From positions 62,001 through 126,000 of the forward strand of contig NZ_SELQ01000003.1 in assembly GCF_004145405.1 (NCBI RefSeq): a stretch of 64,000 nt of DNA. The letters are read 5' to 3'. This DNA is from Salipiger sp. IMCC34102. Lineage in GTDB: Bacteria > Pseudomonadota > Alphaproteobacteria > Rhodobacterales > Rhodobacteraceae. This document shows positions 1 to 23,189 of the stretch, piece by piece; position 1 is the first letter of the stretch; every line of letters starts with the position of its first letter. The position numbers and the translations under genes were made by a program. The notes below the pieces were generated by a model, which worked only from the letters and a program-made list of their open reading frames with translations, did no database searches and was not told where the DNA came from.

Positions 1-46
1 CGGCGACCAGGAGGACGCCGATCAGGAACTTGAACAGCTTCGACAC
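1..46 (-). CDS. 5' end of a leftward membrane or exported protein (partial)
   Basis: Reading leftward from a GTG at 46 gives MSKLFKFLIGVLLVA, a positively charged start followed by a hydrophobic stretch, which is typical of a signal anchor or first membrane helix. A purine-rich GGGGAAG lies a few bases upstream of the GTG. The gene runs off the left edge, so neither length nor family can be judged; AsmA-like or other inner-membrane proteins often begin this way, but that is only a guess. Confidence 0.45.
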   Translation of the reverse strand, partial: MSKLFKFLIGVLLVA

Positions 47-469
47 CGCAGCTTCCCCGTTTCAGTTCGTTCTTTCGATCCCAGCAGGGCCGGATGCAAG
101 ATTGCTTCAGTCCGACCACCTAGGTCCAAAGCGCTCGATTGGCAGGGACGCGTCAAAGGGTCGCTGCGCGCATGGATCGCACGGAGCCGCGATCGCAAGC
201 CTGGTCGACCGGATACGGTGCGGCTTTGATACGGGAAGAATGGAGGAGACGCGGCGCCATGCGCGGCGAGATTTCAAGACAAAGACGGAAAGACGGGACG
301 GGATAGGGTCTCGCCCGCATATTTCGATGGGCACATGCGGACCCCCGGCAACACAGCCTCGATGAAGATGTTAATACCATCTCTCGCATACATATCATAA
401 CTTTCAAGCCAGCGACGGAATTGGAGGCTCGGGACATGGCGCAGGGAAGATCCGGGCGGCGGGGGGACG
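47..469. other. Divergent intergenic region, no gene seen
   Basis: This stretch separates the leftward gene at the edge from the rightward GntR-type regulator. The reading frames here overlap one another and resemble no family. An AT-rich patch at about 361-408 stands out in GC-rich surroundings and is the likeliest place for the regulator's promoter or its own operator, but I cannot define boxes. Confidence 0.4.
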
Positions 470-1174
470 ATGGTGATGGACATCGTGGAAACCTTGCAGA
501 AGCGCATCACCTCCGGTGAATTTCCGGTCGGAGGTCGACTGCCGAGCGAGGCGAAGCTTTGCGAGGAGGCGGGCGTAAGCCGGACAGTCGTGCGGGAGGC
601 CGTGGCGGCGTTGCGCGCCGACGGACTGCTGGAGCCGCGCCAAGGGTCGGGTGTCTACGTGACCGAACCGCCCACAAGCCCCGCCGTCCCGTTTCGCGAC
701 ATCGACCCGTCGAGAGTGTCGTCGGTCATCGAGGTGCTGGAACTGCGCACCGCGCTGGAAGTCGAGGCCGCGTCCCTGGCGGCGCGACGTCGGTCGGCGC
801 AACAGGAGGAAGATATCGTCGCGAGCTTCGACGAGATGGAACGGGTCATCGCGAGAGGCGAAACTTCTGTCGAGGCGGATTTCGCTTTGCATGTCGCCAT
901 CGCGCGCGCCTCTAACAACACGCGGTTCGAGGAATATCTGCAGCTGATCGGACCCAGCGTGATACCACGTCGCGGTGTCCGCGAAGGCGAAGGCGATACT
1001 CCCGTCGATCCGGCTTATCTTCAGCTTCTGTCGCAGGAGCATCGCGAAATCGTGTCTGCCATCCTGGCCAACGATGCGGATGGGGCGTCGGATGCCATGC
1101 GAAAGCACCTTCAGGGCAGTTTGGCACGCTATCGTGGGCTTCTCGAATGCGGATCTTCAATGAGGCGCTTGTAA
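470..1174 (+). CDS. FadR-type GntR family transcriptional regulator
   Basis: A 234-residue DNA-binding regulator. Residues 1-65 form the GntR winged helix (GRLPSEAKLCEEAGVSRTVV, then a wing ending GSGVYV). The rest is an FCD effector domain with DFALHVAIARASNN and a later EHREIV segment, which supply the metal- and ligand-contacting Asp/His residues of this subfamily. Such proteins usually sense small organic acids and repress a nearby catabolic or transport operon. The start has a G-rich ribosome site just upstream; an earlier start is not supported. Its probable target, a peptide-type ABC importer directly downstream, is now only a fragment, so the regulator may be an orphan. Confidence 0.88.
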   Translation: MVMDIVETLQKRITSGEFPVGGRLPSEAKLCEEAGVSRTVVREAVAALRADGLLEPRQGSGVYVTEPPTSPAVPFRDIDPSRVSSVIEVLELRTALEVEAASLAARRRSAQQEEDIVASFDEMERVIARGETSVEADFALHVAIARASNNTRFEEYLQLIGPSVIPRRGVREGEGDTPVDPAYLQLLSQEHREIVSAILANDADGASDAMRKHLQGSLARYRGLLECGSSMRRL

Positions 1175-1247
1175 TATCAATTCTGCAAGCCGTACTGCGA
1201 AAGGGTTCATCGGGAAGAATGTCAGGCAGCGCAGCGCTTTATCGGGC

Positions 1248-1724
1248 ATGGCGGGACAGGCCGGGGCGATCTTCGTCACGCTGGCCTGCCTGCTGATCCT
1301 GACCTTCGTCATCGGGCGGATCATGCCGACGGACCCCGTGCGCACCATTGCGGGAGAGGACGCGACCCGCGAAGCCTACGAGAATGTCTACCATCAGCTG
1401 TGGCTCGACCGGCCGCTCTGGCAGCAGTTTACGATGCGCCTGCGCGACGTAGCGACCTTCGATTTCGGAACCTCCATCCGGACCGGGCAGCCCGTCCTGC
1501 ATGACGTTGCCCACGCGTTGCCCGCGACGATCGAGCTTGCGACCTTCGTCGACATCATCGGCGCGGTCCTCGGGCCGCCGATGGGGGTGGCCGCCGCCGT
1601 GTACAAGGGCCGCTGGCCCGGCCACGTGATACGCGTGGTCAGCCTGATGGGGCATTCGATGCCGATCTTCTGGACCGGGTGGATCGCGGTCCTGAACGTC
1701 GACGGCGGCTGGCTAGCCCGCTGA
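1248..1724 (+). pseudogene. Truncated DppB-type ABC permease
   Basis: The 158 residues match the N-terminal half of DppB/OppB-family permeases: a first membrane helix ending FVIGRIMPTDPVRTIAGEDA, the segment LDRPLWQQF, then ATIELATF and the start of the membrane core. The family is normally about 310-350 residues with six helices; here the frame stops after IFWTGWIAVL plus nine unrelated residues. It is visibly related to the intact permease at 53198-54265, sharing the patterns IGRxxPxDPV and LDRPL. No partner permease, ATPase or binding protein follows. I infer a deletion, possibly IS-mediated, since an IS3 relic lies about 150 bp downstream. Confidence 0.8.
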
Positions 1725-1872
1725 CCCCTCCTCCCCAACCGCAGCCCCCGCGCGGGGATCATCTTGCGATCCACGCCGCCGATCGGGCAGGTTCGCCTCT
1801 CCGATAGGCCGTGCGCGGCCAAAAACAAGCGGCGGTGGCGCGATTCACGGAAGGCCCGTCACTTTCCTTGGC

Positions 1873-1965
1873 TCATGCCTTCGGCGCGGCATGATCTTGC
1901 ACCGGCCGGGACAGACGCTGCTTCACCCTGGCGTTCTCGTCCGAAAGCGCCGTGAAGTGCTTGGC
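1873..1965 (-). mobile_element. Relic of an IS3-family orfA (C-terminal leucine-zipper region)
   Basis: Read leftward, the last 30 residues before a TGA at 1873-1875 contain ALSDENARVKQRLSRPVQDH. This follows the conserved end of IS3-family OrfA proteins, where a form like LEDENAKLKRLLAE-MLDNAALK is usual. Ala, Leu, Asp-Glu-Asn, Lys and the final Asp-x-Ala positions are kept, while others are decayed. No helix-turn-helix, orfB, or terminal inverted repeats were seen, so only a fragment remains. Confidence 0.55.
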
Positions 1966-2339
1966 CTTCGGCGCGGCCTTGCAGCAAGACCCGGCATTCC
2001 CCCTGATTGATCTGCCTTTCGACCTGTTGGCCGGCGCCGTATGTCGCCGTCCTGGCCCATTGCTACGCGTTTGAATTGCAACTGGCGTCTGCGCAGTCCG
2101 TCCCGGCCCCAGGGGCAGTGGGCATCGCGACAATTTGCCCTGACGGCAAACTGGTTTGATTCCATTTCTGTCCGCAATCCGGCCACTGTGCTCACCGGAC
2201 CGTCAGCCAATCATCCGCTCTGAAAGCATCTCGATCCTCGGGCCGAGCCTGCCGAGTTACACGCAAAGCGCGAATCACGGTGGTGGAATCACGTCCGAGT
2301 GGCCGGCAGCCAAGAGGATCCGCGATCACGAATGTCGAG

Positions 2340-2395
2340 TGGATGGAATCAATCGGTGGTTCGGGGCGTCATTTGCGCTTGGATGGAATCAATCG
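2340..2395. repeat. 16-bp direct repeat, 40-bp period
   Basis: TGGATGGAATCAATCG occurs exactly at 2340-2355 and again at 2380-2395. The core ATGGAATCAA also occurs inverted at 2156-2165. The copies lie upstream of the seven-gene operon starting at 2555, so they could be regulator sites or debris of a mobile element. Confidence 0.7.
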
Positions 2396-2554
2396 CCGAG
2401 CGTTTCGGCTGAGAATCGCAATTCTTGGCGGGAAAGCTTGTCTATTGCCTGAAAATTCCCAATGCTCGGACTCGGTATCTTGAGCGTTACGATCTGCGGC
2501 TGATTGTGGTCGCCGAGGAGCTTTAATCCGAACCTCTGAATAGGTATTCGCCCA

Positions 2555-3766
2555 GTGATTATCGCAGCTACCGGGATTCTCCTGGTTGGAATCGTTTTGC
2601 TCGATATCTTTCTGACCGTGCTCGACGCCAATGGGTTGAGCATGATCTCCAGCCGCATCTACAGAGGATTCTGGTGGGTATGGAGGCATTTTTCCCTGCT
2701 TCTTCCGCCCATTGCGCGACACCAGATGCTGGCGCTCGGGGCCCCGCTGATGATTCCGGTCATGATTTTCATTTGGCTGATCGGCATCGTGGTGGGCTTC
2801 ACGTTGATCTATTACGGCGGCCTCTTGCCGGGAAACTTGAGCCACGTCGTATCAGGGGAGCATTCTCGACCTGAATTGCCCGATGCTTTTCGGTTGAGCG
2901 TGGTTTCCATTTCGACGATCGGTTTCGTGGAAATCAGTCCATCGAATATGCCATATTCGCTGACTGTCGCATTCGAGGCAATTCTCGGAAATCTGATCTT
3001 GACGCTCGTCTTGACTTATTTCCTGAGCGTTCACGGAGCGGTTCTCAGCTACAACGTGTTCGTTGCTTACCTGCGGGCGCGCATTCCACGCAGCGGAGAG
3101 CCCATCGACGCGCTCAAAAGGCATTTCGACAAGGGCGAAGCGCGCGAACTGGAACCCTGGCTCGATCGGTTGGATTCCGGGCTGTCTGCGCTTCACGAAG
3201 GGCTGCGGCGCTACCCGATCCTCTACTATTTCCGGCCCCTGCACATCGAGCGCGGGCTGCCGGATACGTTGTCGGCGCTCAGACGCGTCGTGACCGGGTT
3301 GAACTGGGGGCTTCCCGGGGACCATCCGGCCCGCCGAAGCGCCAACTTGGGCGCGTTGGAAGCAACGCTGGAGGACCTGATCGAGGATCTGCAGGATCGC
3401 TACGTTCCGATCCACCGCCGAACCGTGATCGCGCCGATGTCGGCCCGGGCCTTCGCGACGGCCTGCGCCTCTCGCCGGGCCCTTCGCGATCCCTGGCTGG
3501 ACGAGTTCCTCGCCGAATGTCGCGCGGTGCAGATCGCGACGGGCGTGGAGGATACCGATGACGTCGAGCAACTGTATGACCGCTACCTCTCCTGGTTGCC
3601 GATCACGCTCAGGCTTCATGACTTCAAGCGCGCCGTACGGGACGACCTGGGCTACTCCGAACGGGTTCGCCCGGGTCGCAGGTCTGTCTGGGCGGTTCTG
3701 GCCAGCGGACCGCGTGAGCGTCCGCAATCCCTGCAGTCGACCTCTTCCGAGAGTGCCGAGCAATGA
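2555..3766 (+). CDS. K+-channel-like two-helix membrane protein
   Basis: A 403-residue protein with an N-terminal hydrophobic segment (about 1-22), a helix at about 62-90, a pore-like loop and another helix at about 135-160. The loop carries STIGFVEISP (residues 119-128), laid out like the selectivity filter of two-TM potassium channels, but the canonical T-V-G-Y/F-G is changed to T-I-G-F-V, so ion selectivity is uncertain. The C-terminal 230 residues are soluble and probably cytoplasmic, and I do not recognise them as RCK or TrkA domains. Start is GTG at 2555. It overlaps the next gene by 4 bases and heads a seven-gene run, suggesting a role in the same envelope system. Confidence 0.72.
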   Translation: MIIAATGILLVGIVLLDIFLTVLDANGLSMISSRIYRGFWWVWRHFSLLLPPIARHQMLALGAPLMIPVMIFIWLIGIVVGFTLIYYGGLLPGNLSHVVSGEHSRPELPDAFRLSVVSISTIGFVEISPSNMPYSLTVAFEAILGNLILTLVLTYFLSVHGAVLSYNVFVAYLRARIPRSGEPIDALKRHFDKGEARELEPWLDRLDSGLSALHEGLRRYPILYYFRPLHIERGLPDTLSALRRVVTGLNWGLPGDHPARRSANLGALEATLEDLIEDLQDRYVPIHRRTVIAPMSARAFATACASRRALRDPWLDEFLAECRAVQIATGVEDTDDVEQLYDRYLSWLPITLRLHDFKRAVRDDLGYSERVRPGRRSVWAVLASGPRERPQSLQSTSSESAEQ

Positions 3767-5103
3767 TCGGGTCGTCGTTTCATATCCCGACGGTGCTCGG
3801 CCGGATCCGGGTGTTCCTGCTGGATGCCTTCTGGATCGTGCCGGCCTTGGCGACAATCGCCGCATTGCTCCTGGCGCGCTGGACCAGCACCCTGGATTAC
3901 ACGACGCCCATCCGTTTCGGCGGACTGCTGACGACGTCGGGGCCATCGGGCGCGCGCGACATGGTGCAGACCGTCGCCAACAGTTCGCTGTCGGTCGTCA
4001 CGTTGGTCTTCTCGATCATGATCGTGGTGCTCCAGGTCGCGGGGTCGCAGTACTCGCCCCGTCTGCCCGCGCAGTTCCTGCGCGACATGACGACCCAGGT
4101 GGTTTTGGGGATCTTCGTGTTCACCTTCGTGTTCAGCCTGTCGATCGTCCGGTCGATCGGCGCGGCGAGCGACTTCGTCCCCACCTTCGCGGTCACGGCC
4201 TGCTTTCTTGCCGCCATCTTCTGCGTCGCGGCGTTCATCCATTTCATCCATCACACCGTTCACTCGATGCGGGTTGAAATGGTGCTCGACCACATCCGTG
4301 AGGAAACCGTCAGCACGTTGCGCAGGCGGCAGCGACGCCACGATCCCTCGGTCGAGTTCGCCGAGATGCCGATCATTCCCGATCACGCGGCGCCATTGTT
4401 CTGCCCGGTCGTGGGCACCTTGCAGAACCTCGACGGCAGCGGGTTGGTCGAGACGGCGAAATCCGAAGGGGTGGTGGTCTGCTTCGTCGTGCTGAATGGC
4501 GATACCCTTGCTGCGGGAACGCCCATCGCCTGGATCTGGAAAGGGGACGCCAAGCCCAGATCGGATTGCATGGAGCGCCTGGACAAGAGGATCCGGAAGA
4601 TCATTCAACTTGGCAACGAGCGAACCTTCCGAAGCGATTTCGGGTTCGGCATCATCCAGTTGATCGACATTGCCCTGCGATCGCTGTCGACGGCCGTCAA
4701 CGATCCCACGACGGCCTGCATGTCGATCCGGGCGATCGAGGGCGTGATGAGCGAACTGGCCCGCGGAAACCCCCGCACACGACACTTCTGCGACGACGAT
4801 GGCGAACTCAGGGTCGTCGTGCCGGAAAGAAGTTTTGCGGACTACCTCGGCGATGCCGTGGGATCGATCAGCCGCGCCGCGCCGGACGACGTCATGGTGG
4901 GCAAGGCCCTGCTGGGGCTGCTACACGACCTAGCCTATGCCGCCCGGTCGGTCCGGCACAAGAGCGCGGTCGCAGCGCAGGTCACGCGGGTCGAGCAGCT
5001 TTGCCTGAACGCCATGACCGACGACTGCGATCGCTCGGAGATCAGGGTCTCGGTCATGAGATCGCGGCGGGCCCTGCGTGGCGAACCACCGGTGTACCTA
5101 TGA
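3763..5103 (+). CDS. DUF2254 family predicted membrane protein
   Basis: 446 residues. N-terminal helices at about 20-40, 75-100, 105-130 and 145-165 surround the family hallmark LVFSIMIVVLQVAGSQYSPR, followed by a long soluble C-terminal region (about 170-446). DUF2254 proteins are widespread inner-membrane proteins without an agreed function. The gene starts in an ATGA overlap with the channel-like gene and ends in an ATGA overlap with the UPF0182 gene, so translation of the three is probably coupled. I infer that they form one membrane assembly or act in one envelope process. Confidence 0.85.
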   Translation: MIGSSFHIPTVLGRIRVFLLDAFWIVPALATIAALLLARWTSTLDYTTPIRFGGLLTTSGPSGARDMVQTVANSSLSVVTLVFSIMIVVLQVAGSQYSPRLPAQFLRDMTTQVVLGIFVFTFVFSLSIVRSIGAASDFVPTFAVTACFLAAIFCVAAFIHFIHHTVHSMRVEMVLDHIREETVSTLRRRQRRHDPSVEFAEMPIIPDHAAPLFCPVVGTLQNLDGSGLVETAKSEGVVVCFVVLNGDTLAAGTPIAWIWKGDAKPRSDCMERLDKRIRKIIQLGNERTFRSDFGFGIIQLIDIALRSLSTAVNDPTTACMSIRAIEGVMSELARGNPRTRHFCDDDGELRVVVPERSFADYLGDAVGSISRAAPDDVMVGKALLGLLHDLAYAARSVRHKSAVAAQVTRVEQLCLNAMTDDCDRSEIRVSVMRSRRALRGEPPVYL

Positions 5104-8039
5104 GCACGGTCATCGGATTCTTCACCTGGCTCATAGCCGGCCTGAGCCGCAAGGTTCTGTTCTACATCGTGGGTTCGATCTTGGCGGTCATCGCGTTCCT
5201 GTTGTCGATCTGGGCCTATACCGAGATCCTCTGGTATCGGGCGATCGGGTATTTCGACGTCCTGTTCACCATGTACACGACGATGTTCTGGATGGGGATG
5301 TTCCCTTTCCTGACCATGACGCTCTTCGTCGTCGCCAACATGTCGCTGGCGCGCATTCTCGCGCCGGCCGATCGCGTGATCTCGGACGACGAGCGGACCG
5401 TCGATCGGTGGCGTCGGGCGATCACGCCTTTCTTCAAGCCTCTCACGGTGATCGTGGGGATCGTTTGCGGTCTTCTGATCGCGCTGCAGACCTATATCCA
5501 CTGGCAGACCTACCTCCTTTGGGCCAACGGGGTGGAATGGGGCCGGGTCGATCCGCAGTTCGATCGCGACCTGAGCTATTTCATGTTCGATCTGCCGTTC
5601 TACGCCCTGATCAACCGCTGGGCCTTCATCGGGCTGCTGGTCACGCTGGTTCTGTGCGCGATCACCAGCTACATTTTCGGCGGTATCCGCCCCCAGGCCC
5701 CTGGCAGCAAGTTGCCGGTTCCGGTCAACATCCACTTCTCGCTGATGCTGATGATGCTGATGGCGATGCTGGGATGGCGGCTGCTGATCGAGCTTCACAT
5801 GCTCAGTTACTCCGACCGCGGCGTGATCACCGGACTGGGGTTCACGGATTCCAACGCAAGCCTCGTGGCCTACAAGTTCGTCGCTTCCGGCGTGGTCACG
5901 GGCTTCGTGCTGTTCCAGGTCAACATCCGAAAGCCCGGCTGGATTTTGCCCACGATCGCGCTGGTCTGGTTGTTCCTGATCGGCCTCGCGGCGGCGCGCT
6001 TCTATCCCAACATCTACCAGCTTCTGATCGTGGAGCCGCAGGAGCTGGAGCGGGAGTCCTCCTTCATCGAGGATCACCTGGAGTTCACGCGCTACGGGTT
6101 CGGGCTGGACAGCGTGGATCGGCGGACGATCACCGGTCGGTCGCCTGTCCCGGGAGATCTCGAGGAGTACCGCGACGATTTCGCGAACCTGCGGCTTTGG
6201 GACTCCGACACGATCCAGATCAACTTCGAGGAAATGCAGGCGCTGCGCAGCTACTACGAGTTTCCGAACATCGACTTCGACCGATACGTCATCGACGGCA
6301 GGCAGACGCCCGTCCTCGTCGGCGCACGCGAGGTCAACATCGCGCGGCTTCCCGAAGGATCGCGCCGCTGGCAGACGCAACGGATGATCCTGAGCCACGG
6401 ATCGGGAGTGGTGGCCGCGGACGTGACGGCCTCTACCGCGGCGGGAATGCCGGTTTTTCTGACCTACGACATGCCGGTGCAGGGCGTGCCCGAACTGGTC
6501 GCGCGCAACCCGCGCATCTACTACGGGGAGCGGACGACGGGCTTCGCCTTCGTCGATACCGACACGCTGGAACTCGACCGTCCCCTGCCGCCGAATGCGC
6601 GCAACGAGAAACTGACGCCGGTCGTGCCGGATGACAACGCCGCCAACGCCCAGGCCAACGACCGGCGCTGCCCGGAGGATTACATCGACGATCCCTCGGA
6701 CCCGAACCCGATCGTCGACGCCTTGAGCCCGGCGGGGACGGGCCCCGAAGCCAGCCCCGAGAACACTTCGGAGGAATGCGCGCGCGACCGGGTCGGATTC
6801 CGTTTCAACAACTACAGCGGAGAAGGGGGCGTGGTCATGCGCAACGTCTTTCACCGCCTGTCGTTCGCGCTGCGCCTTTGGGATCTTCGGCTGGGTTTGA
6901 CCCGTCTTCTCGATGCCGACAACAAGGTGCTTTTCCACCGCAACGTGCGGGACCGGATCGCCCGGGTCGCGCCTTACCTGAAAGTCGACAGAGATCCTTA
7001 CCCCGTGGTCCTCGATGGCCGCATCAAATGGATCGTGGACTGCTACACGGTTTCGGACATGATGCCCTACTCGCGGCGGGTGAACCTGACGTCCCTGACG
7101 CAGGTGACGCAACCCAAGCAGGACGGCGGGCTTCTGCCCGACGAATTCCTTGCCGACGACGCGGGCCTCGCCGGCACGGCCAACTACCTGCGCGGCAGCG
7201 TGAAGGCTGTGGTGGACGCCTACGACGGCACCGTCACACTTTACGTGGTCGATCCCGACGATCGCGTCCTGCAAAGCTGGAAGAAGGTCTTTCCGGATAG
7301 CTACGTGCCGATGTCCGAGGCAAGCGAGACACTGCGGGCGCATTTTCGCTATCCTCAGGACCTTTTCCGTATCCAGGCCACGATCTGGTCCGATTACCAC
7401 ATGATCACGCCGGAAGCCTATTACTCTCGCGAGGCCGCTTGGCGGATCCCGCCCGACACCTCGTTCATCTCGGACCGCGCCGAGCGCCAGACCGGTCACG
7501 AAGACCAGCGCCGCGCCGATATGCGGCCCTATTGGCTGCAGACGCGGTTCCCCGGCGATGACGAAGAGCAGTTCGCGATTGTCCAGACCTTCAGCCCGGA
7601 GAACCGCAACCTACTGACCGGCTACCTAGCGGGATTGAGCGACGGCGATCGCATGGGGGAGCTGATATCCTATGCACTCCCCCCGACGAAGACGGTCCTC
7701 GGTCCGGCGCAGGCACAGGCGCGCATCGACCAGGACACGGAGATTTCCGCCTGGATCACCTTGCGGATGCAGTCGGGGTCGCGCGTCTCCCGCGGTCGCC
7801 TGATCACACTGCCGCTCGGTGATACCGTGCTCTACGTGCAGCCGCTCTTCGTGCAGGCGGACAAGTCCGAGGTTTCGACCCTGCTGGGCGCACAGCTCGC
7901 CAGCCTGCCGGAGCTCAAGAAGGTGGTCCTGGTAATGGGCGACCGCGTCCTGATGCGCGACAGCCTTCAGGAGGCGGTCGAAGCCATCCTGGGAACGTCG
8001 GCGACCGCCACGACCCCGCCGCCAAGTCCCGACAACTGA
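5100..8039 (+). CDS. UPF0182 family large membrane protein
   Basis: 979 residues, a normal size for UPF0182. The first 300 or so residues hold about seven hydrophobic helices. The remainder is a large domain, probably outside the membrane, with an acidic Pro/Glu/Asp-rich linker at about 520-560, as usual for the family. No enzymatic motif can be assigned. The ATG at 5100 was chosen because it forms a 4-base overlap with the DUF2254 stop; the open frame extends upstream to 4566 but is only a shadow of that gene. UPF0182 is best known from actinobacteria and cyanobacteria, so its place beside DUF2254 and a curlin-repeat protein is notable. Confidence 0.88.
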   Translation: MSTVIGFFTWLIAGLSRKVLFYIVGSILAVIAFLLSIWAYTEILWYRAIGYFDVLFTMYTTMFWMGMFPFLTMTLFVVANMSLARILAPADRVISDDERTVDRWRRAITPFFKPLTVIVGIVCGLLIALQTYIHWQTYLLWANGVEWGRVDPQFDRDLSYFMFDLPFYALINRWAFIGLLVTLVLCAITSYIFGGIRPQAPGSKLPVPVNIHFSLMLMMLMAMLGWRLLIELHMLSYSDRGVITGLGFTDSNASLVAYKFVASGVVTGFVLFQVNIRKPGWILPTIALVWLFLIGLAAARFYPNIYQLLIVEPQELERESSFIEDHLEFTRYGFGLDSVDRRTITGRSPVPGDLEEYRDDFANLRLWDSDTIQINFEEMQALRSYYEFPNIDFDRYVIDGRQTPVLVGAREVNIARLPEGSRRWQTQRMILSHGSGVVAADVTASTAAGMPVFLTYDMPVQGVPELVARNPRIYYGERTTGFAFVDTDTLELDRPLPPNARNEKLTPVVPDDNAANAQANDRRCPEDYIDDPSDPNPIVDALSPAGTGPEASPENTSEECARDRVGFRFNNYSGEGGVVMRNVFHRLSFALRLWDLRLGLTRLLDADNKVLFHRNVRDRIARVAPYLKVDRDPYPVVLDGRIKWIVDCYTVSDMMPYSRRVNLTSLTQVTQPKQDGGLLPDEFLADDAGLAGTANYLRGSVKAVVDAYDGTVTLYVVDPDDRVLQSWKKVFPDSYVPMSEASETLRAHFRYPQDLFRIQATIWSDYHMITPEAYYSREAAWRIPPDTSFISDRAERQTGHEDQRRADMRPYWLQTRFPGDDEEQFAIVQTFSPENRNLLTGYLAGLSDGDRMGELISYALPPTKTVLGPAQAQARIDQDTEISAWITLRMQSGSRVSRGRLITLPLGDTVLYVQPLFVQADKSEVSTLLGAQLASLPELKKVVLVMGDRVLMRDSLQEAVEAILGTSATATTPPPSPDN

Positions 8040-8054
8040 ACGGAAAGGTTCTTC

Positions 8055-8600
8055 ATGCTCGATATCATCCTTATCGTGGGGCTCGTCATCCTGCTGGCCA
8101 GCGTGCTGATCGCGGCCCTGCGCAGGTTTGATGCGAACTCGTACTTCGACCAGGACCGGCAGCCCTTCTATTCCGAACCCGACGAGCTGGTGAAAGCCGG
8201 GCTCATCTTCTCTCAGCGAGACCGCAGCGGGGAGGAAAAGCACACCTATACCGTCACCCCGGCGGGAGAGGCCGGTTTGCGCGCCTGGTTGCGCGAGCCC
8301 ACCAACGATCCGGGGTTTCTCTCGGCGCATTTCGGCGGGCTGGTGAAGACGTTCGACGCCGATCAGATCGTCGATGGCCGCACCAGCCAGCACCGGTCGC
8401 GCCTGGCCGAATACGAGCGGATCGAGGAGCTGGTCGTGAACCGGCCCGAGTGGCGCTACGCGCTTGCGGCCACGCGCGTCGGGATCGAGTTCGAGCGCGC
8501 CTGCCTGGAGTTCTGGGACGAGATCGCGACCGACCAAAAGATCAACGCCGAACGCGCGGAGACCCAGAAAGAGAAATACTTCAAGGAGATCGCCACATGA
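8055..8600 (+). CDS. Membrane-anchored PadR-like protein without a usable HTH (1 of 2)
   Basis: 181 residues. Residues 2-22 form a membrane helix. Then come DANSYFDQDRQPFYSE (26-41), a wing-like YTVTPAGEAGLRAWLREP (65-82), and a helical region with FGGL, RSRLAEYERIEE and TRVGIEFERACLEFWDE (140-156). The second half follows the wing and C-terminal dimerisation helices (Vir_act_alpha_C type) of PadR regulators closely, but the helix-turn-helix that should precede the wing is missing and a membrane anchor takes its place. I infer a PadR-derived oligomerisation or scaffold module rather than a DNA-binding protein. It has a paralogue at 8762 and overlaps the next small gene by 4 bases. Confidence 0.65.
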   Translation: MLDIILIVGLVILLASVLIAALRRFDANSYFDQDRQPFYSEPDELVKAGLIFSQRDRSGEEKHTYTVTPAGEAGLRAWLREPTNDPGFLSAHFGGLVKTFDADQIVDGRTSQHRSRLAEYERIEELVVNRPEWRYALAATRVGIEFERACLEFWDEIATDQKINAERAETQKEKYFKEIAT

Positions 8601-8749
8601 AAATCCGCAACCAGGGCTTCATCGGCCTGCTACTGCTCGCCCTCCTGTTCGGCTGGATCTGCGTCGCGCTGGTTTGGCCCTGGCTCAGTCGGACGTTCTC
8701 TGAACCCGAACTCAGCCAGCTGATCTCGACCGTCGCGATCGCCGTCTAG
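8597..8749 (+). CDS. Small single-pass membrane peptide (50 aa)
   Basis: A 50-residue ORF, MKIRNQGFIG followed by a strongly hydrophobic helix (about 10-31) and a short tail ending STVAIAV. Its ATG lies in an ATGA overlap with the upstream PadR-like gene, and it stops 12 bases before the next gene. This packing and the clean positive-inside N-terminus support a real gene. No family recognised. It probably partners the two membrane-anchored PadR-like proteins that flank it. Confidence 0.65.
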   Translation: MKIRNQGFIGLLLLALLFGWICVALVWPWLSRTFSEPELSQLISTVAIAV

Positions 8750-8761
8750 GGAGCCCCGCAC

Positions 8762-9607
8762 ATGCTTGTCCTCATTCTTATCGTCGCGATAATCGCCCTG
8801 TTGATCATCTACATGGTCGCATCCGTGCGCCAACACGATGCCGACAGCTACGCGGACCAGGATCGCGACCCGTTCTATTCCGAAAGCACGCGACTGGCGG
8901 CAGCCGGATTGCTTTACGAGCAGCCCGAGCGCACGCACGGACGTCCGCGAAAATCCTTTACCATCACGCCCGCCGGGGAAGCGGCCCTGCGCACATGGCT
9001 GCGCGATCCCATGAGCGATCCCGGTATGCTGCGCCTTTACTTCGCGGGCATCGTGACCCCTTCCGACGTGCTCGATCTGGTGCGGGCGCAACGCGAGCGT
9101 CATGCCGAACGGATCGCGCAATACGAGCGCATTCAGACGTTGCTCGGTCCCACCGCGGATACGCAGGACGACGAGGACGGCCAGGGTGGGAGTGGCAAGA
9201 GCAAGGCCGAGCAGGACGACGACGCGGAGGAGAATGAGAACGACGACAAGAAAGGCAAGAACGACGGCAAAAAGGGCAAGGAGGACGACAAGAAAGGCAA
9301 GGAGGACGGCGAGAAGAGCGAGGGCGACGACAAGAAAGACAAGAAGACAAAGGAGAGTGACGACGAGGAGGAGGACGGCGCCGAGGAGGACGATGACGAG
9401 GACAATTCCGACGAGAACGAGGACGCCGAAGGTCGCGACGCGGAAGACGGTGCCGATGACGACGACGCGCCGCGCGACGAATGGGCCGACGCGCGCGACT
9501 TCCATGCCCTCGGCCTGCGCTTCGAGACGTTCTGCCGCGATTTCTGGGACAGGAAACTCGACGGTCCGATCGGCAATTTCGCCCCCAGCAAGTCCAGTTC
9601 GGAGTAA
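8762..9607 (+). CDS. Membrane-anchored PadR-like protein with K/D/E-rich insertion (2 of 2)
   Basis: 281 residues, a paralogue of the protein at 8055: membrane helix at 2-21, shared DADSYADQDRDPFYSE (26-41), wing ITPAGEAALRTWLRDP (68-83), then LRLYFAGIVTPSDVLDLV and ERIAQYERIQ. At about residue 131 the PadR-like C-terminal helices are interrupted by some 110 residues almost entirely of Asp, Glu, Lys and Gly, first lysine-acid mixed and then mostly acidic. The closing helix resumes at 246-266 (FHALGLRFETFCRDFWDR) and matches the end of the 8055 protein. The charged insert is probably disordered and may bind cations or the downstream fibre protein. It stops four bases before the curlin-repeat gene. 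Confidence 0.65.
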   Translation: MLVLILIVAIIALLIIYMVASVRQHDADSYADQDRDPFYSESTRLAAAGLLYEQPERTHGRPRKSFTITPAGEAALRTWLRDPMSDPGMLRLYFAGIVTPSDVLDLVRAQRERHAERIAQYERIQTLLGPTADTQDDEDGQGGSGKSKAEQDDDAEENENDDKKGKNDGKKGKEDDKKGKEDGEKSEGDDKKDKKTKESDDEEEDGAEEDDDEDNSDENEDAEGRDAEDGADDDDAPRDEWADARDFHALGLRFETFCRDFWDRKLDGPIGNFAPSKSSSE

Positions 9608-9611
9608 ATCG

Positions 9612-12011
9612 ATGTACAAGCTTGCTTTCGTCGCCTTTGCCCTGTCCGCCGCCACGGGCGCCCGGGCCCAGGGCCTTCCGGTCGTGCAGGCCGACGAGGA
9701 GACCCGCAACAACAGCACCGTGAGCGTCCAGCAGGACCCCGATGCGAGAAACGGACCCTTGTCCAATTTCGATGGCGCGGCAAACTACACGTTCTTCGAC
9801 GGCAGCGAAATCTACATAGAGCCCGACGGTGCGGCCATCTACCAGGACGGCAGTGGGTCCGAAGCGCACCTGTCGCAGGCGGGCAGGGACAACCGTGCGG
9901 CGATCCGGCAGGCCACGGGCGAAGACGCCGGGACGAACGATGCCACCGCGCGCATCTTGCAAGGGGAAAGCGGCGCCGAGGCGAACCACGCCGAAGCGCT
10001 GATCGTCCAGCGCGGCGATGGCGGCACGGCCGTCATCGAGCAGAATGGATCAAGCCTGCGCTCGATCGGGCTGCAGGTAACGGAGGCCTCCGGAGGGAGG
10101 AACCGGGACGAAGACCAGGAAACCCCTACCCAGTCCGACCAGGGGACGAACGAACAGACCCAGAAGCTGTCGGGCGAGGCGTTGCAGAGCGAGGTTTCGC
10201 AAACCGGCCTTCGACTTGCCGCCGAGGTGTCCTTGATGGACGCCCGCGACGACGATGGCCGGATCAGCCAGACGGGCGCTGGCCACAAGGCCTCCTATTC
10301 GGCGAAATCGGGCGAGGGCCGCTCCGGTCGGATTCTGCAGGATGGCGACCAACCGAGCGAAGCCGACGTCGATGTCACGGGATCCGGGCACCGCGCGACG
10401 ATCGAGCAAGGCGGCGTGGGCGGAAGGCATGCCGCGACCGTCGCGCAGTCCGGGGCTGATCATCGCGTCGAACTTCAACAACGGCGCGACACCACGGACG
10501 GTGAAGGGCAGTCCGCCACGGCCGACCAGAGCGGCTCCGGGAATGTCGTTAATGGCAACCAGTCGGGCGCGGGTGGGAACATCCTGCAAGTCGGACAGGA
10601 AGGCGAGGACTCGACCGCCCTCGAGGCCAATGTGCAACAAGACGGCTCCGGAGGCGGCAACAAGGCGGACGTCGATCAAACGGGCGAGAACCAACTGGCC
10701 GATCTGGTCCAAGGCGGATCGGGCGGCGGCAGCGTGGCGGCTGTCGACCAGTCGACCGACGACAGTCATGGCAACACGGCCAGGCTTGAGCAGGCGATCG
10801 AGGCAGGCACCGGAACCGACGAAATCGACGTCGACCAAAGCGGGAATTCCAATACGGCAGACATCCTTCAGACCCGCAATGCGGGCGGTACGGGACATCT
10901 GGTCACCATCGCGCAACCGGGCACATCGAACGAGACCGGCGTCGAGCAGGAGGGCGTTGCCCAGAAGGCCGCCGTGGATCAGGATGGTCGCACCAATCTT
11001 GCAAAGGTGGGCCAAACCGGCACCGGCGGCCACGAAGCCGATATCGATCAGGCCGGACGCGACAATGTGGCAACGCTCGACCAGTCCGGCAGCGGCGGCG
11101 CAAACATCGGGTCCATCGATCAGTCGGCTTCCGAAGGCAAGAACGAGGCCCAGCTTCGTCAAGGTGGTGAGCGGGGGCTGAACACGGCCGACATCGATCA
11201 GGCCCAGACTGGCAACAATGGTGTCATCGAGCAAAGCGGTGACACCGGAAGCACGGGGAGCACCGCCAGTCTCGCGCAACCGGGCCGCATGACCGAGGGG
11301 CGCATTTCTCAATCCGGCGCGGCACTGGAAGCCTCCCTCACGCTCAACGGCGAGGAGAATCTTGCCGAGATCGTGCAAAGCGGCGAGGAGGCTTCCGGCA
11401 AGTCTCAGATATCGACCGGATCGGATGCTTCGGGAAACGATGCGCGCATTCTCGCGCGAACCGGTGGAAGCGTGGGGTCCATCGATCAGACGTCCAGCGA
11501 CAACACGGCACGGATCGAGATGTCCAACGGAAGCCCCACCGACGGCACGGACGAGGCTGACATAGATCAGGGGGGCGCAGGGGGGCACGAGGCGCGGATC
11601 CTGATCGAGGGGGCCGGCACATCGCGCACCGCACAGATTGCGCAAGATGGCGAAACCTCGGTGGCCGAATTGACCTTCTCCGGGCCCGGACCCAATACGA
11701 AAGCCAGTATTCGGCAAGTCGGGGCGGACAATTCAAGCAGAATCGAAAGCACGGCGCGTGATAACGGCGGGCTGACCGTGACCCAAAAGCAAGATGGCCA
11801 GGGCAACGAAACCGTCCTGAAACAGGAGGGGCGGAATCTTGAGGTGACCATCAACCAGGTCGGCGAGAACAATACCGTCGATCTAACGCAAACGGGCGAA
11901 GGCTATGCCGTCACGATCACGCAAAGAGGCAACGGACAGCATCTGTCGTTGACGCTCGATGGGCCGAAAGAGGGGGGTGGCGACTATACCTATACCCAGA
12001 CCGAAGAATAG
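9612..12011 (+). CDS. Large exported curlin-repeat protein (putative functional amyloid)
   Basis: 799 residues with a signal peptide (1-19, cleavage after ARA). From about residue 75 to the end it is a run of imperfect 20-25-residue units of the curlin type, with Gln, Gly, Asn, Ala, Gln spaced as in CsgA/CsgB. Examples are INQVGENNTVDLTQTGEG and IDQAGRDNVATLDQSGSGG. It is much longer than CsgA or CsgB (about 150 residues) and rich in Asp/Glu. I infer a secreted beta-solenoid or amyloid fibre subunit. No csgE, csgF or csgG is in the window, so its export route is unknown. The ATG at 9612 is chosen because the signal peptide begins there; the longer frame from 9102 reads through the charged insert of the previous gene. 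Confidence 0.83.
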   Translation: MYKLAFVAFALSAATGARAQGLPVVQADEETRNNSTVSVQQDPDARNGPLSNFDGAANYTFFDGSEIYIEPDGAAIYQDGSGSEAHLSQAGRDNRAAIRQATGEDAGTNDATARILQGESGAEANHAEALIVQRGDGGTAVIEQNGSSLRSIGLQVTEASGGRNRDEDQETPTQSDQGTNEQTQKLSGEALQSEVSQTGLRLAAEVSLMDARDDDGRISQTGAGHKASYSAKSGEGRSGRILQDGDQPSEADVDVTGSGHRATIEQGGVGGRHAATVAQSGADHRVELQQRRDTTDGEGQSATADQSGSGNVVNGNQSGAGGNILQVGQEGEDSTALEANVQQDGSGGGNKADVDQTGENQLADLVQGGSGGGSVAAVDQSTDDSHGNTARLEQAIEAGTGTDEIDVDQSGNSNTADILQTRNAGGTGHLVTIAQPGTSNETGVEQEGVAQKAAVDQDGRTNLAKVGQTGTGGHEADIDQAGRDNVATLDQSGSGGANIGSIDQSASEGKNEAQLRQGGERGLNTADIDQAQTGNNGVIEQSGDTGSTGSTASLAQPGRMTEGRISQSGAALEASLTLNGEENLAEIVQSGEEASGKSQISTGSDASGNDARILARTGGSVGSIDQTSSDNTARIEMSNGSPTDGTDEADIDQGGAGGHEARILIEGAGTSRTAQIAQDGETSVAELTFSGPGPNTKASIRQVGADNSSRIESTARDNGGLTVTQKQDGQGNETVLKQEGRNLEVTINQVGENNTVDLTQTGEGYAVTITQRGNGQHLSLTLDGPKEGGGDYTYTQTEE

Positions 12012-12436
12012 ATACCCGAAAGGCTTACCATCCGCCCGACAGCCCCGGATAACGCGTCCAGTATGGTGTTTGCCGAAGTCTCTCGCCGATATTCGTCCGT
12101 GCCCGCGCCCCGGCGATCGACCCCGCGCGATACGACCGTCCGAGGGGTGGAGAAGCCGTCGGATCAGGAAATGCCGGTCCGCAGAACACCTAGTGTCATG
12201 TCCGATGCCCCAAGCCCGCCCACACGAGGATGAGGCCCGACCGGAAAGGTCGAACACTCCGGAATGACACGCTCGGCAACGCGGTCCGTTATTCTTCATG
12301 CAACCGATGGACTCGCACCTTGGAGGGCGCAATACTCCCTTAGGTTGCTAAATGGTCATCCACTTCAAGTTTGCTGTACCGTTTCCCTGTTGTCTTCCGC
12401 TTTTGGTCAATTCCATTTGCCCTCGAGGTCCCCCAA
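12012..12436. other. Intergenic region upstream of the autotransporter
   Basis: About 425 bases without a credible gene. A 7-base inverted pair, GTGTCAT near 12194 and ATGACAC near 12264, is present but too far apart for a terminator. The last 100 bases are AT-richer and probably carry the autotransporter promoter, separating it from the curlin operon. Confidence 0.4.
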
Positions 12437-15352
12437 ATGTCCCGTAATTCGCTACTTTCCCATGTGTCTGCCTTGGCACTGGCCTGTGTCGCCCCGTCCT
12501 TCGCGACAGCGCAATGTGTCGTCACAACCGGAACGGGCACCGCGTCGAGTCCCGATGCAGGCGACGTCATCGACTGCGACAGCAATCTCGAAACGGATTC
12601 GATCCTCGGTCCGGATGCCGCCGGCGTGACGCTGAATATCAACGCGCCGTCGGGTGGCATCTCGGTGACGGGCGACGAAGCGGTGCTTTTGGGCAACGGT
12701 GCCATCATCGACATCGACAGTGCCTCCAACCGTCCCGTGCAGACCTCGGGCGATAGCGCGGCGGCGATCACGGTCGGCAACAACGCGCAGATCACGGTCG
12801 GCGGTCGGGTCGCGACCTCGGGCGAGGCATCGAACGCGATCGACACCGGACGCCGCGCCACGGTCGACGTGCTGGGAACGGTGACCACCGGCGGCGGCGG
12901 CTCGAACGCGATCTCCGTCGGGGCGGGCAGCACCGTGACGGTCGGGCCGCGTGCCAACGTCAACACCCAGAATTCCAAGTCGACCGCCGTCCTGCTGCGC
13001 GGCGACAACGCGACGCTGACGATCGAGGCCTTGCAGACCGAGCAGAACGGCCTTCAGCAAGGGCTCGTGACGACCTCATCGGGCAATTCCAATCCGGTTC
13101 TGATCCGCGGCAATGGCGGCACGGTGAACGTCTCGGGTGAAGTGAGATCCTCTTCCGGGGCCGCCACGGCAATCCTCGCCGCCGGGGATGAAGCCGAAAT
13201 CACGGTGCGGGACATGGGCTTCGTCAGCGCGACCTCCTCGAATTCCAACGCCATCGAATCCACCGGAACCGGCGCGTCGATCCTGGTGGAGGCCGGCGGC
13301 GAGATCGCCATCTCATCGGGAAATTCCGCAGGCATCGTTGCCGGTCCCCAAGGCACGGTCGAGATCGCCGGCACCGTCGGGGCAAGTTCCTCCAACAGCC
13401 AAGGCGTCGTGCTGGGCAACCGGGGTGAGCTTACGATCCGCACCGGCGGTTTGATCGAAACCTCCTCTTCGGAATCGCAGGCCGTGCTGATCGGCGAAGA
13501 CGCCACCACCGCCACGATCCTGGTCGAAGAAGGCGGCGACATCGACGCGGTCGGGGCGCAGGCGATCGTCGACCGGGGCACGACCCGCACCGAAGTCACG
13601 GTGAACGGCGTTGTCTTCGGCGGCTCCTCCGAGCCGGTCATTTCGCTTGGGGGCGGGAACGACACCCTGGTCGTCAACGGCACGGTCCGGGGCTCCTCGG
13701 CCGACCCGGTGATCGACATGGGCGCGGGCGACGATTCGACGACGATCAATTCGTCCACCACCGTCGAAGGGCCCGGGGTCCTTGTCGACGGCGGATCGGG
13801 CAACGACGAGCTGACCCTTGCATCGGGGCAGAACTTCGACGCCAACCAGTTCACCGGGGTCGAACAGACCACGACGCGGCGCAACACCACGCCGGGCGAT
13901 CCGAACGAGGGCGGATCGACCTCGGTCAACGTATCGGATGACCAATCCGGCAACAGTTTCTCTGCCGGGGAAGGTGGGAACGTTACCGTCGAAAACGGCG
14001 GACGCGCGGGGCGGGTCTCGACCAACGACGGCGGGCAGGCCACGGTTCGCGAAGGTGGAACGGCCGGAGTGGATGCCGACTCGGGCGGTGACGGCACCGG
14101 GCGGCTGACTTTCGAGCGCGGCTCGACCGCCGACGTGGAAGGCAAGGCGCAGTCCGGCGATCAAAGCTTCGATGTCGCCGGGGCCAATTTCCAGGACGGG
14201 ACGAACGTATCCATCAACAATTCCGGCGTGCTGCAAGGATCCGCCTCCGGTGGCCGGGTTTCGGTCTCCTTGCCCACGGATGCCTTCGAGGCGGCCAGTG
14301 ACAGCGCCTCGACGGCCTCTTTCGGGGCGGCCATCGATGCCGCGATCGCCGCTGACGACGTCGATGCGACGCAGTTGATCCTCACCGATGCAGAGTCGCT
14401 TCCGGCCATTCTGCGCGACGGGGCCGGCGAGGATCGGGCACAGGTTGCCGCAGGTGCGGTGGCCACGACTCTGGCCTTCGGTGACCTGCTGTCGGCGCGC
14501 GGCCAGACCGGCCCCGCCGCCGCGGCTGCGAGTGGTGTCGTGGTGTCGTCGAAGAACCCGATCGGTGCGGCGACCGGCGCCTGGGTCGATCTCTTCGGTG
14601 GAGAGATCGAAAGCGAGACTGACCTGACCAGCGACTTCGACGCAAGCTTCGCGGGCCTCGCAGCCGGGGTCGAACAGGACATGGCGTTTGGCGGCCTGGG
14701 CTTCGGCCAGGTGGGCTTGGCCGTGGGCGTCTCGCGGGGCAACACCGACGGTATCGCGGGCGACGGCGACTTCGACGCGCTCTCGATCGGTGTCTACGCA
14801 AACTCCGTCAACGGTCCGTCGCAGGTGACGGGACATCTGGCCTACACCGGACTGGACTTCGATCTGGGCGGTGACGACGCGGGCGACGGCCACCTCTTCT
14901 CGGGCCGCGCCGAATATGCCCATGATCTTCGCGGCGAGTATGCGGATGCGATCCTGCTGGCCCCCTATGCGGCGCTCGGCTTCGTCTCTGGCGAGATCGA
15001 CGGCGGGGCGACGCCGCTCGCCTCGCTGGACGAGGGGGAGATCGATCAGGGTATTGCCGAGATCGGCATGCGCGTCGGTCGCACTTTCGACGTCGGAAAA
15101 CAGACCGTCAGCGCCGTTGTCGAGGCGGCCTACGAGCGTACCTTCGGCGACGAAGGCGTGACGTTCGCAGGCACCGCGTTCGGCCAGGACTTCTCGACGG
15201 TGGCTTCGGCTCTCGAAGACGAGCGGTTCAAGCTGGGCGTGGGGCTCGAGACGCGTTTGTCCCCCGCGGCGACCCTGTCGGTGCGGTACGACGGGCGGTT
15301 TGGCGGCAGTGACGACCATCGCCTTGGCCTGGGGGTCAACTTCGCGTTTTGA
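12437..15352 (+). CDS. Autotransporter (type Va) with beta-helix passenger
   Basis: 971 residues. Signal peptide 1-25 (cleavage after ATA). A long passenger (about 26-690) is rich in Thr, Ser, Gly, Asn and Val, with repeated strand-turn units such as SNSQGVVLGNRGELTIRTGG and GGGNDTLVVNGTV, expected to form a beta-helix. The C-terminal 280 residues are an outer-membrane beta-barrel starting near GAWVDLFGGEIESE and ending in Phe (GLGVNFAF), the usual signal for Bam recognition. The barrel would export the passenger to the cell surface for adhesion or matrix building. The ATG at 12437 has GAGG 8 bases upstream and gives the signal peptide directly. No protease motif was seen. Lying next to the curlin-repeat gene, it may act in the same surface layer. 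Confidence 0.88.
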   Translation: MSRNSLLSHVSALALACVAPSFATAQCVVTTGTGTASSPDAGDVIDCDSNLETDSILGPDAAGVTLNINAPSGGISVTGDEAVLLGNGAIIDIDSASNRPVQTSGDSAAAITVGNNAQITVGGRVATSGEASNAIDTGRRATVDVLGTVTTGGGGSNAISVGAGSTVTVGPRANVNTQNSKSTAVLLRGDNATLTIEALQTEQNGLQQGLVTTSSGNSNPVLIRGNGGTVNVSGEVRSSSGAATAILAAGDEAEITVRDMGFVSATSSNSNAIESTGTGASILVEAGGEIAISSGNSAGIVAGPQGTVEIAGTVGASSSNSQGVVLGNRGELTIRTGGLIETSSSESQAVLIGEDATTATILVEEGGDIDAVGAQAIVDRGTTRTEVTVNGVVFGGSSEPVISLGGGNDTLVVNGTVRGSSADPVIDMGAGDDSTTINSSTTVEGPGVLVDGGSGNDELTLASGQNFDANQFTGVEQTTTRRNTTPGDPNEGGSTSVNVSDDQSGNSFSAGEGGNVTVENGGRAGRVSTNDGGQATVREGGTAGVDADSGGDGTGRLTFERGSTADVEGKAQSGDQSFDVAGANFQDGTNVSINNSGVLQGSASGGRVSVSLPTDAFEAASDSASTASFGAAIDAAIAADDVDATQLILTDAESLPAILRDGAGEDRAQVAAGAVATTLAFGDLLSARGQTGPAAAAASGVVVSSKNPIGAATGAWVDLFGGEIESETDLTSDFDASFAGLAAGVEQDMAFGGLGFGQVGLAVGVSRGNTDGIAGDGDFDALSIGVYANSVNGPSQVTGHLAYTGLDFDLGGDDAGDGHLFSGRAEYAHDLRGEYADAILLAPYAALGFVSGEIDGGATPLASLDEGEIDQGIAEIGMRVGRTFDVGKQTVSAVVEAAYERTFGDEGVTFAGTAFGQDFSTVASALEDERFKLGVGLETRLSPAATLSVRYDGRFGGSDDHRLGLGVNFAF

Positions 15353-15660
15353 TCGCTCGCAGCGCGGTTGATCGGATCAACCTAGCGCAGGAGCCCGTGC
15401 CGGTGTCGACCGTTCGACTTCATGGCGCGGGCTCCACCCCACGGCATTCCATATGGGCGCCGTCGGTTCCGGCGGGCAGGCTGCCTTCGACACATGCCTG
15501 CCCGGGCCGCGCGCCGGCAGATCGCCTTTCGATACGTCCTGCTTGATCCTGTCCCCGGACGGGTCGTGATCGAGTGGGACGCCGTGCACCTTCCGTCGCT
15601 TCCATGCGGCGCCCGTCCGGCCGATGGCTTCCACGTGTGCCTTGCCGGCAAGGTCTGCCC
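15353..15660. other. Convergent intergenic region
   Basis: About 310 bases between the autotransporter and the leftward LacI gene. It contains the perfect palindrome GTTGATC-G-GATCAAC at 15367-15381, just after the autotransporter stop. There is no T-run to make it a standard terminator. No gene seen. Confidence 0.45.
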
Positions 15661-16680: not shown

Positions 16681-16749
16681 GCTGCTGGCCTTCCAAGCAA
16701 AGATTTTGGGCATCTTACGAAAATTTCCCCTTGATCCGCAATCGCGCTT

Positions 16750-16777
16750 GTAGAACAGTTTACGTATAACGGTCTAC
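16750..16777. promoter_or_regulatory. Candidate LacI-family operator
   Basis: A 28-base imperfect palindrome centred on TACGTA, with outer arms GTAGA and TCTAC; 20 of 28 positions are symmetric. It lies between the divergent LacI-type regulator and the rhamnosidase gene, where an operator for both promoters would be expected. Confidence 0.6.
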
Positions 16778-16821
16778 GAAGCCCCTCGGGAGGAGGGGCC
16801 GACCGGAGCGGAGGAAGTTTC

Positions 16822-19104: not shown

Positions 19105-19153
19105 TCGCGCGAAAAGGACCGGCCCCGCGCCGGGAAACAAGGGAGAGAGACCA

Positions 19154-20476: not shown

Positions 20477-20497
20477 ATCTTAGACGGAGCCCCGGTC

Positions 20498-22179: not shown

Positions 22180-22182
22180 CCC

Positions 22183-23181: not shown

Positions 23182-23189
23182 AGCCGAAA

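Follow-up and report, generated by a model that had tools for sequence, protein, structure and literature searches.

What does a giant curlin-repeat protein do at the end of a run of six membrane-protein genes? Curlin proteins are known as secreted fibre subunits, and the locus raises the question of whether this one is released as a fibre or kept by the proteins encoded beside it. It lies in a 64,000-nt stretch of Salipiger sp. IMCC34102 contig NZ_SELQ01000003.1 (the window; all coordinates are positions in it), where an ORF check of positions 2555-12011 gave seven co-directional, tightly coupled genes:

g1, 2555-3766, forward strand: 403 aa, GTG start, K+-channel-like membrane protein
g2, 3763-5103, forward strand: 446 aa, DUF2254 membrane protein
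g3, 5100-8039, forward strand: 979 aa, UPF0182 protein
g4, 8055-8600, forward strand: 181 aa, half-PadR protein tethered by a transmembrane (TM) segment
g5, 8597-8749, forward strand: 50 aa, single-TM protein
g6, 8762-9607, forward strand: 281 aa, paralogue of g4
g7, 9612-12011, forward strand: 799 aa, curlin-repeat protein with a signal peptide

Neighbouring genes overlap by 4 bases at 3763, 5100 and 8597 and are separated by 15, 12 and 4 bases at the remaining junctions; an earlier note, which had described these seven same-strand coupled genes, was correct to the base. Hydropathy analysis found at least one TM segment in each of g1-g6 and none in g7, in line with the noted succession of six membrane proteins and a signal-peptide-bearing curlin-repeat protein. 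The family names given there were likewise confirmed for g2 (DUF2254, E 6.9e-98, 328 bits, cut-off 28.8), g3 (UPF0182, E 1.4e-215, 718 bits, cut-off 27) and g7 (Curlin_rpt, E 2.3e-35). Our analysis adds that g1 resembles a 2TM channel, that g5 is not universal, that g4 and g6 are paralogues with half a winged helix, and that five relatives have an extra gene after g7. A promoter and terminator scan was uninformative (2 promoter-like sites against 2.2 expected, 4 terminator-like sites against 9.8 expected), Rfam gave no match in positions 1-20000, and no tRNA genes were found in the window. PADLOC returned 0 matches for the six proteins other than g5, and there is therefore no support for a defence system.

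The gene order is kept in all eight loci analysed (the window and seven relatives), which come from four alphaproteobacterial orders. The relatives were located via a g4 or g4/g6 profile, a search that loci without g4 and g6 would escape. The cassette is rare: among 292 genomes of its own order, only its own matched g4 strongly, and six of the seven relatives are in, or group with, other orders. The Rhodobacterales search proposed in the earlier note would thus have yielded little, and the conservation that the note had set beforehand as the test of its single unit was found in seven relatives, mostly elsewhere. Trees of g1, g2, g3, g4 and g6 give the same groups, and g5 is present in four of the eight cassettes. 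The six genes other than g5 are under purifying selection (dN/dS 0.09-0.31 in all 12 comparisons). When flanking ORFs were compared all against all, no outer-membrane gene proved to be conserved around the cassette; the only sharing between loci was a small secreted gene after g7 and one RND-pump match (L012 versus L015, 24-33% identity, opposite strands). Taken as observed, the seven genes are supported as one unit. Recent spread of the cassette left no sign: g3, 58-87% identical among cassettes, diverges more between orders (58-68% identity) than RpoB does (70-73%).

The first three proteins combine membrane segments with large C-terminal domains. g1 has an extra N-terminal TM segment, then a putative TM-pore loop-TM arrangement of the K+-channel type, and a C-terminal domain of ~250 aa. 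The usual K+-channel selectivity filter is TVGYG; a filter of this type is missing from g1, which has STIGFVE instead, invariant in all eight loci. Ion_trans_2 scored 20 bits in the window g1, just below the curated cut-off of 22.5, and was detected at E<=0.01 in six of seven g1 proteins; comparison of g1 with KirBac3.1 gave E 0.0021. g2 consists of ~4 N-terminal TM segments and a C-terminal domain of ~285 aa; PDB searches by sequence or profile found nothing credible for DUF2254. g3 has 7 TM segments followed by a domain of ~680 aa. Its loop 2 is the most basic (5-9 Lys/Arg), and therefore an N-in orientation with the C-terminal domain outside is favoured, which would make that domain periplasmic. 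For UPF0182 the same kinds of PDB search yielded nothing beyond one chance match (E 1.3). An AlphaFold2 model of g3, built on 7 alignment rows, was useless (pLDDT 41.5, a point that also weighs against retention of g7 in the envelope), and the role of UPF0182 therefore rests on topology.

In g4, an N-terminal TM segment replaces the first half of the PadR winged helix, while the region of the recognition helix and wing and the Vir_act_alpha_C helices are kept, presumably in the cytoplasm. Its paralogue g6 contains an acidic/lysine-rich insert, the long form of which occurs in the window and L010 only. The match to PadR begins at position 36-39 of 75, preceded by the TM helix, and the g4/g6 profile aligns to AphA from residue 37 onward only. 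The PadR-associated dimerisation helices Vir_act_alpha_C are found in 14 of 14 g4/g6 proteins (E 2.8e-5 in g4 and 2.3e-7 in g6 of the window), PadR at E<=0.01 in 6 of 14. The label PadR-like, applied to these genes earlier, is upheld by Vir_act_alpha_C, but PadR itself falls below the cut-off in both. Unlike PadR regulators with Vir_act_alpha_C, g4 and g6 have neither a complete winged helix nor a soluble form, and they are tethered and paired in all eight loci. By Pfam, none of the cassette proteins is a regulator whose DNA-binding domain is intact, and none matches HAAS, PspC or Toastrack. Among the papers listed by literature searches, none described an operon that joins curlin to PadR, and none a tethered PadR.

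Curlin repeats (PF07012) are present in all seven g7 proteins scored (L038 left out), with signal peptides recognized by inspection. A structural model of g7 (mean pLDDT 81.9, pTM 0.76) predicts one long beta-solenoid; the 17 PDB structures that Foldseek aligned with the model offered no helpful relative, as all stayed above E 0.001 (lowest 0.72) and the rmsd was at least 13.9 A. All curlin repeats of the source genome are in g7, and a search at E<=0.001 gave no other curlin gene there. A lipobox, LAAC, is found in two of the eight g7 proteins and a weaker one, YAAC, in a third; the window and L010 proteins contain no cysteine, which tells against retention. PMC10192328 reports curlins with 4 to 62 repeats, and there as in PMC3521004 curlin proteins are treated as secreted fibre subunits, the role for which they are known and one that speaks against retention.

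The source genome gave no match to CsgG (the control was positive in E. coli and three others), and CsgE, CsgF and CsgH had no Pfam match among the seven window proteins, in agreement with the earlier note, which had found none of the known curli export genes in the run. Altogether, CsgG went unmatched in five of seven genomes (the source and four of six others; the eighth, G808, was left out). The two relatives with matches (E 2.6e-49 and 6.7e-6) count against retention, the strong match being in L011, whose g7 has a lipobox. A gene for a small secreted protein follows g7 in five of the eight loci and is absent from the window, L014 and L015. One of these five proteins has a sub-threshold likeness to the C-terminal end of CsgF (Pfam E 0.045, 14.4 bits against a cut-off of 25.8), as a surface system might show, and the presence of the gene itself favours the surface view; a PDB profile search with the small protein matched no CsgF or CsgH structure. 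The autotransporter gene downstream of the cassette (12416-15352) was rejected as the exporter: in L010 a gene on the upstream side of the cassette, for an RTX-repeat protein, matches it weakly (E 0.003), and the six remaining relatives gave no match. A gene away from the cassette could still supply an outer-membrane exporter, which would weigh against retention.

We tentatively read the cassette as one inner-membrane machine with a dedicated periplasmic client, g7, held in the envelope. After export by Sec, g7 would be met by the large, putatively periplasmic C-terminal domain of g3, and folded and held as an envelope-anchored solenoid rather than released as curli, the anchor being a lipid in some species and partner proteins in others. 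Where present, the small secreted protein may prevent aggregation of g7. g4 and g6 would form a membrane-bound heterodimer on the cytoplasmic face, probably not DNA-binding, which with the channel-like g1 and the DUF2254 protein g2 would gate or sense the complex; the physical contacts in this scheme are hypothetical. We count in its favour the conserved order, congruent trees, purifying selection and absence of a conserved outer-membrane gene, the missing CsgG match in five of seven genomes and the lipobox in some g7 proteins, and the half winged helix, g3 topology and g7 solenoid model.

Level with retention, and just as tentative, is a CsgG-independent surface amyloid, in which g7, with the membrane proteins as its secretors, anchors or regulators, would cross the outer membrane through an exporter encoded elsewhere and form polymers outside the cell. 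Among solved curlins, 8c50 (E 2.9e-29) and CsgA 8enq (E 0.0025) are matched by the g7 profile, curlins with as few as 4 and as many as 62 repeats are reported (PMC10192328), and the small secreted gene, with a weak CsgF match in one locus, fits as well. Furthermore, according to PMC3521004, curlin subunits are all that could be identified in many Alphaproteobacteria; the operons concerned hold an additional gene, csgH, and an alternative biogenesis is inferred there. The likeness to curli comprises the repeats, the signal peptide, the predicted solenoid, the small gene that follows in five of eight loci and the precedent for missing csg genes. However, the set has no outer-membrane component conserved alongside it, a lipobox occurs in two g7 proteins, the source genome has g7 as its single curlin gene at E<=0.001, and the small gene is missing from three loci and matches no CsgF or CsgH structure. 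The cassette also differs from csg systems in its mostly absent CsgG, in a single giant curlin in place of small A/B subunits, and in six inner-membrane partners, which we found described in no csg operon. Of the surface-fibre or matrix system proposed in the earlier note, the single unit and new gene set stand, whereas g7 as a surface fibre is unproven (no conserved outer-membrane part, CsgG unmatched in five of seven genomes, lipobox in two).

An envelope-stress or ion-homeostasis sensor, in which g1, DUF2254 and UPF0182 signal via membrane-bound g4/g6 while g7 serves in the periplasm as a mechanical or ligand-related part, is unlikely. The invariant STIGFVE and the tethered pair in every locus agree with it, as does PMC11237479, where PadR-type proteins, encoded with membrane proteins in HAAS-PadR and Lia/PSP modules, are put forward as working together with membrane stress modules. 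But a regulator whose DNA-binding domain is intact is missing from the cassette, and the HAAS-PadR pair described there uses a standalone wHTH PadR beside the HAAS domain, not a tethered paralogue with a TM segment in place of the first wHTH half. Slightly more doubtful still is an unexported g7 that acts as a strut or tether across the periplasm, with a length put at ~12-18 nm from the size of the protein. It would connect the UPF0182/DUF2254/channel complex and its membrane-bound PadR-derived switch with the outer membrane, and envelope tension or spacing would then gate the channel-like g1. Such a g7, working as a component of an envelope machine, would have no precedent among the curlins that we know of. 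Chance co-location of unrelated co-directional genes has practically no probability left, since the order is conserved in all eight loci despite otherwise different neighbours, even though UPF0182 proteins of the same family outside the cassette (27-33% identical to g3 in the 30 plasmid entries listed, of 36 records) had no cassette partner listed in five plasmid neighbourhoods (PLSDB gene tables incomplete).

Our literature search found no paper combining any two of curlin, DUF2254 and UPF0182, and no earlier description of the gene set; the claim of a new system holds. A long curlin alone is a known kind of protein; what is new is the assembly. The recurrence of the cassette suggests that amyloid-type proteins can be handled in the cell envelope in a manner not yet described, and, if g7 stays there, an amyloid-type solenoid would have a role that we have not met before. 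The cassette bears on a question raised in 2012 (PMC3521004) of how Alphaproteobacteria with curlin but few csg genes handle their curlins. It also gives UPF0182 and DUF2254, large families without known function, a putative client and a fixed set of partner genes with which their function can be tested.

The seven coupled, co-directional genes at 2555-12011 (+) encode a K+-channel-like protein (g1), DUF2254 (g2), UPF0182 (g3), two half-PadR paralogues with a transmembrane (TM) helix (g4 and g6), a 50 aa single-TM protein (g5) and a 799 aa curlin-repeat protein with a signal peptide (g7). The genes, coordinates, overlaps and gaps of the earlier note proved exact, and Pfam backs DUF2254, UPF0182, curlin repeats and C-terminal helices of PadR type. 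The note had proposed looking for the same neighbour set in other Rhodobacterales. Within that order g4 matched only 2 of 292 genomes, strongly its own and weakly one other (24% identity, E 5.8e-4). A scan of contigs with g4 as query found six further loci, and the g4/g6 profile a seventh:

L010: uncultured Rhodobacteraceae, found with g4
L011: Qipengyuania aestuarii, found with g4
L012: Algimonas, found with g4
L013: Q. citrea, found with g4
L014: Aurantimonas, found with g4
L015: Jiella, found with g4
L038: genome in the family of L011, found with the g4/g6 profile

The named genera (L011-L015) belong to Sphingomonadales, Maricaulales and Hyphomicrobiales. All seven relatives have the order g1-g2-g3-g4-(g5)-g6-g7, so that the neighbour set is conserved in eight of eight loci including the window, in a search that is blind to variants lacking both g4 and g6. 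Four loci have g5, namely the window, L010, L014 and L015; where it was not found (L011, L012, L013 and L038), just 4-11 bases separate g4 from g6.

At E<=0.001 the g4/g6 profile matched 12 of 385 genomes of the class (nine first-look candidates scored per genome), strongly in the own genome only. The other 11 matches (E 7.5e-9 to 8.4e-4) align from profile position 25-39 and thus contain little or nothing of the TM part; taken as a group, they look like ordinary PadR proteins. Known carriers counted, this profile matched 2 of 149 genomes in the family of L011 and 2 of 199 in that of L014. UPF0182 was found in 2 of 289 class genomes, the own among them, and the g1 profile matched a single one of 249 phylum genomes, again the own (seven candidates scored per genome). 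Counted by themselves, curlin repeats occur in 18 of 244 genomes of the order (E<=1e-5, own included). Among plasmids g4 matched six records, all at <60% identity and <80% coverage. A DNA search of the eight other genomes of the genus, which distant copies would escape, found no match across the cassette except 66 bases at 9359-9424, a low-complexity part of g6. Given the few matches in all these surveys, the cassette is rare and patchy.

Trees of g1, g2, g3, g4 and g6 recover the same groups (window with L010, L014 with L015, and L011 with L013 and L038), and L012 falls between the last of these and all others. The g7 tree deviates: there the window joins L014/L015 (support 0.98). The cassette has travelled or been inherited as one unit. 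Identities of RpoB (window-L010 90%, between orders 70-73%) and g3 (69% and 58-68%) gave no sign of recent spread. dN/dS (Nei-Gojobori) was 0.09-0.31 in all 12 comparisons (six genes, g5 left out, in two pairs). Together the data establish the cassette as a unit, its parts and its selection.

The pore domain of g1 shows kinship with K+ channels (KirBac3.1, E 0.0021), but its filter is STIGFVE in all eight proteins. Sequence searches gave no credible relative of known structure for g2 or g3. In seven of eight loci g3 has 7 predicted TM helices and a C-terminal part of 623-696 aa, which we infer to be periplasmic; the L012 protein has an additional eighth hydrophobic stretch. Both g4 and g6 have an N-terminal TM helix with basic residues after it, and their alignment to PadR/AphA sets in only at the recognition-helix region, so that both lack the initial helices of the winged helix. 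From these two features we infer that g4 and g6 pair as a heterodimer tethered to the membrane, with no DNA binding of the usual kind. In four of the eight g6 proteins a further, weak hydrophobic stretch (89-107) was called. At 9237-9402 of the window, tandem units of 21 and 15 bases code for a part of g6 rich in lysine and acidic residues, inside the Vir_act_alpha_C region; the long insert occurs only in the window and L010.

The eight g7 proteins (664-938 aa, some starts guessed) contain 23-40 curlin-type motifs by our own pattern, and acidic residues outnumber basic ones in each. Against solved structures the g7 profile matched curlin 8c50 (E 2.9e-29), and the g7 model is a long succession of beta strands (pLDDT 81.9). 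From this strand pattern and published curlin models, we take g7 to be a probable solenoid. A curlin solenoid rises by 0.48 nm per layer. With this rise and the 23-residue repeat described in PMC10192328, the length of g7 is estimated at 12-18 nm. The signal peptides of L011 and L038 contain a lipobox, LAAC, and that of L013 a weaker one, YAAC; the window and L010 proteins contain no cysteine.

An all-against-all comparison of the flanking ORFs of the eight loci (E<=1e-5) gave six matching pairs in total. Three reflect RND efflux pumps (24-33% identity), on opposite strands downstream of both cassettes:

L012 14413-19936: RND efflux pump genes
L015 15253-18432: RND efflux pump genes

The other three join a small ORF directly 3' of g7 in L011, L013 and L038. 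The same kind of gene follows g7 in L012 (tblastn E 1.2e-6) and in L010, where the ORF starts one base past g7; it was looked for and is absent in the window, L014 and L015:

L010 14270-14500: small secreted gene
L011 13267-13575: small secreted gene
L012 about 13080-13376 (start guessed): small secreted gene
L013 13163-13468: small secreted gene
L038 6123-6368 (-): small secreted gene

These genes start inside the final bases of g7 or one base beyond, the L012 start being guessed. Their products (76-102 aa, signal peptide by inspection) end in a motif like LRLTVxDxxSxAxTVLDLP. One of the five resembles the C-terminal end of CsgF at E 0.045, below the cut-off, and a PDB search with the profile turned up neither CsgF nor CsgH; the likeness to CsgF is a possible lead only.

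The neighbours otherwise differ between loci, as Pfam showed for 26 ORFs beside the cassettes of the seven relatives and for 7 beside that of the window. In Jiella (L015) a tyrosine integrase (2224-3468, -) lies about 0.9 kb upstream, and in L010 an RTX-repeat protein (3025-4020, +) lies just upstream. Around the window cassette are:

1248-1985: upstream, a short piece of an ABC permease (158 aa); another own-genome contig matches 1685-1757 at 97% identity, and 1756-1985 has 68-69% matches to places in congeners and the own genome
12416-15352 (+): downstream autotransporter on the same strand, its passenger rich in repeats; not conserved with the cassette
15658-15920: end of the LacI-type regulator region, with a second copy (93% identity) on another own-genome contig
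15661-28166: LacI regulator, sugar-type ABC transporter, GFO/IDH/MocA oxidoreductase, xylose-isomerase-like and DUF4432 genes, which look like an ordinary sugar-use cluster

The matches of 1685-1757 and 1756-1985 suggest a mosaic edge left of the cassette.

No paper was found joining any two of curlin, DUF2254 and UPF0182, or combining curli, periplasmic and curlin repeat protein, in a search outside which lay most subscription papers and all bioRxiv preprints; nor was one found with four of six cassette components together, which does not prove absence from print. Among the DUF2254 literature, passages of PMC11184937 concern knotted folds.

In the host genome (3.58 Mb, 46 contigs) all six curlin-repeat matches at E<=0.001 fall in g7, and CsgG had no match, in a search whose control did detect it in E. 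coli and three further genomes. Whether g7 is retained in the envelope or exported is a choice between two readings that stand almost level. Retention is favoured by the inner-membrane location predicted for the products of six of the seven window genes, by the lack of any outer-membrane gene conserved with the cassette, by the absence of a CsgG match in five of seven genomes and by two g7 proteins that look lipid-anchored. Export is favoured by the known curlins as precedent, by the two genomes that match CsgG (strongly L011, E 2.6e-49; weakly L013, E 6.7e-6) and by the small secreted protein encoded 3' of g7 in five loci. L011 combines the strong CsgG match with a g7 lipobox. The cassette would encode a complex in the inner membrane together with a periplasmic solenoid dedicated to it, g7.
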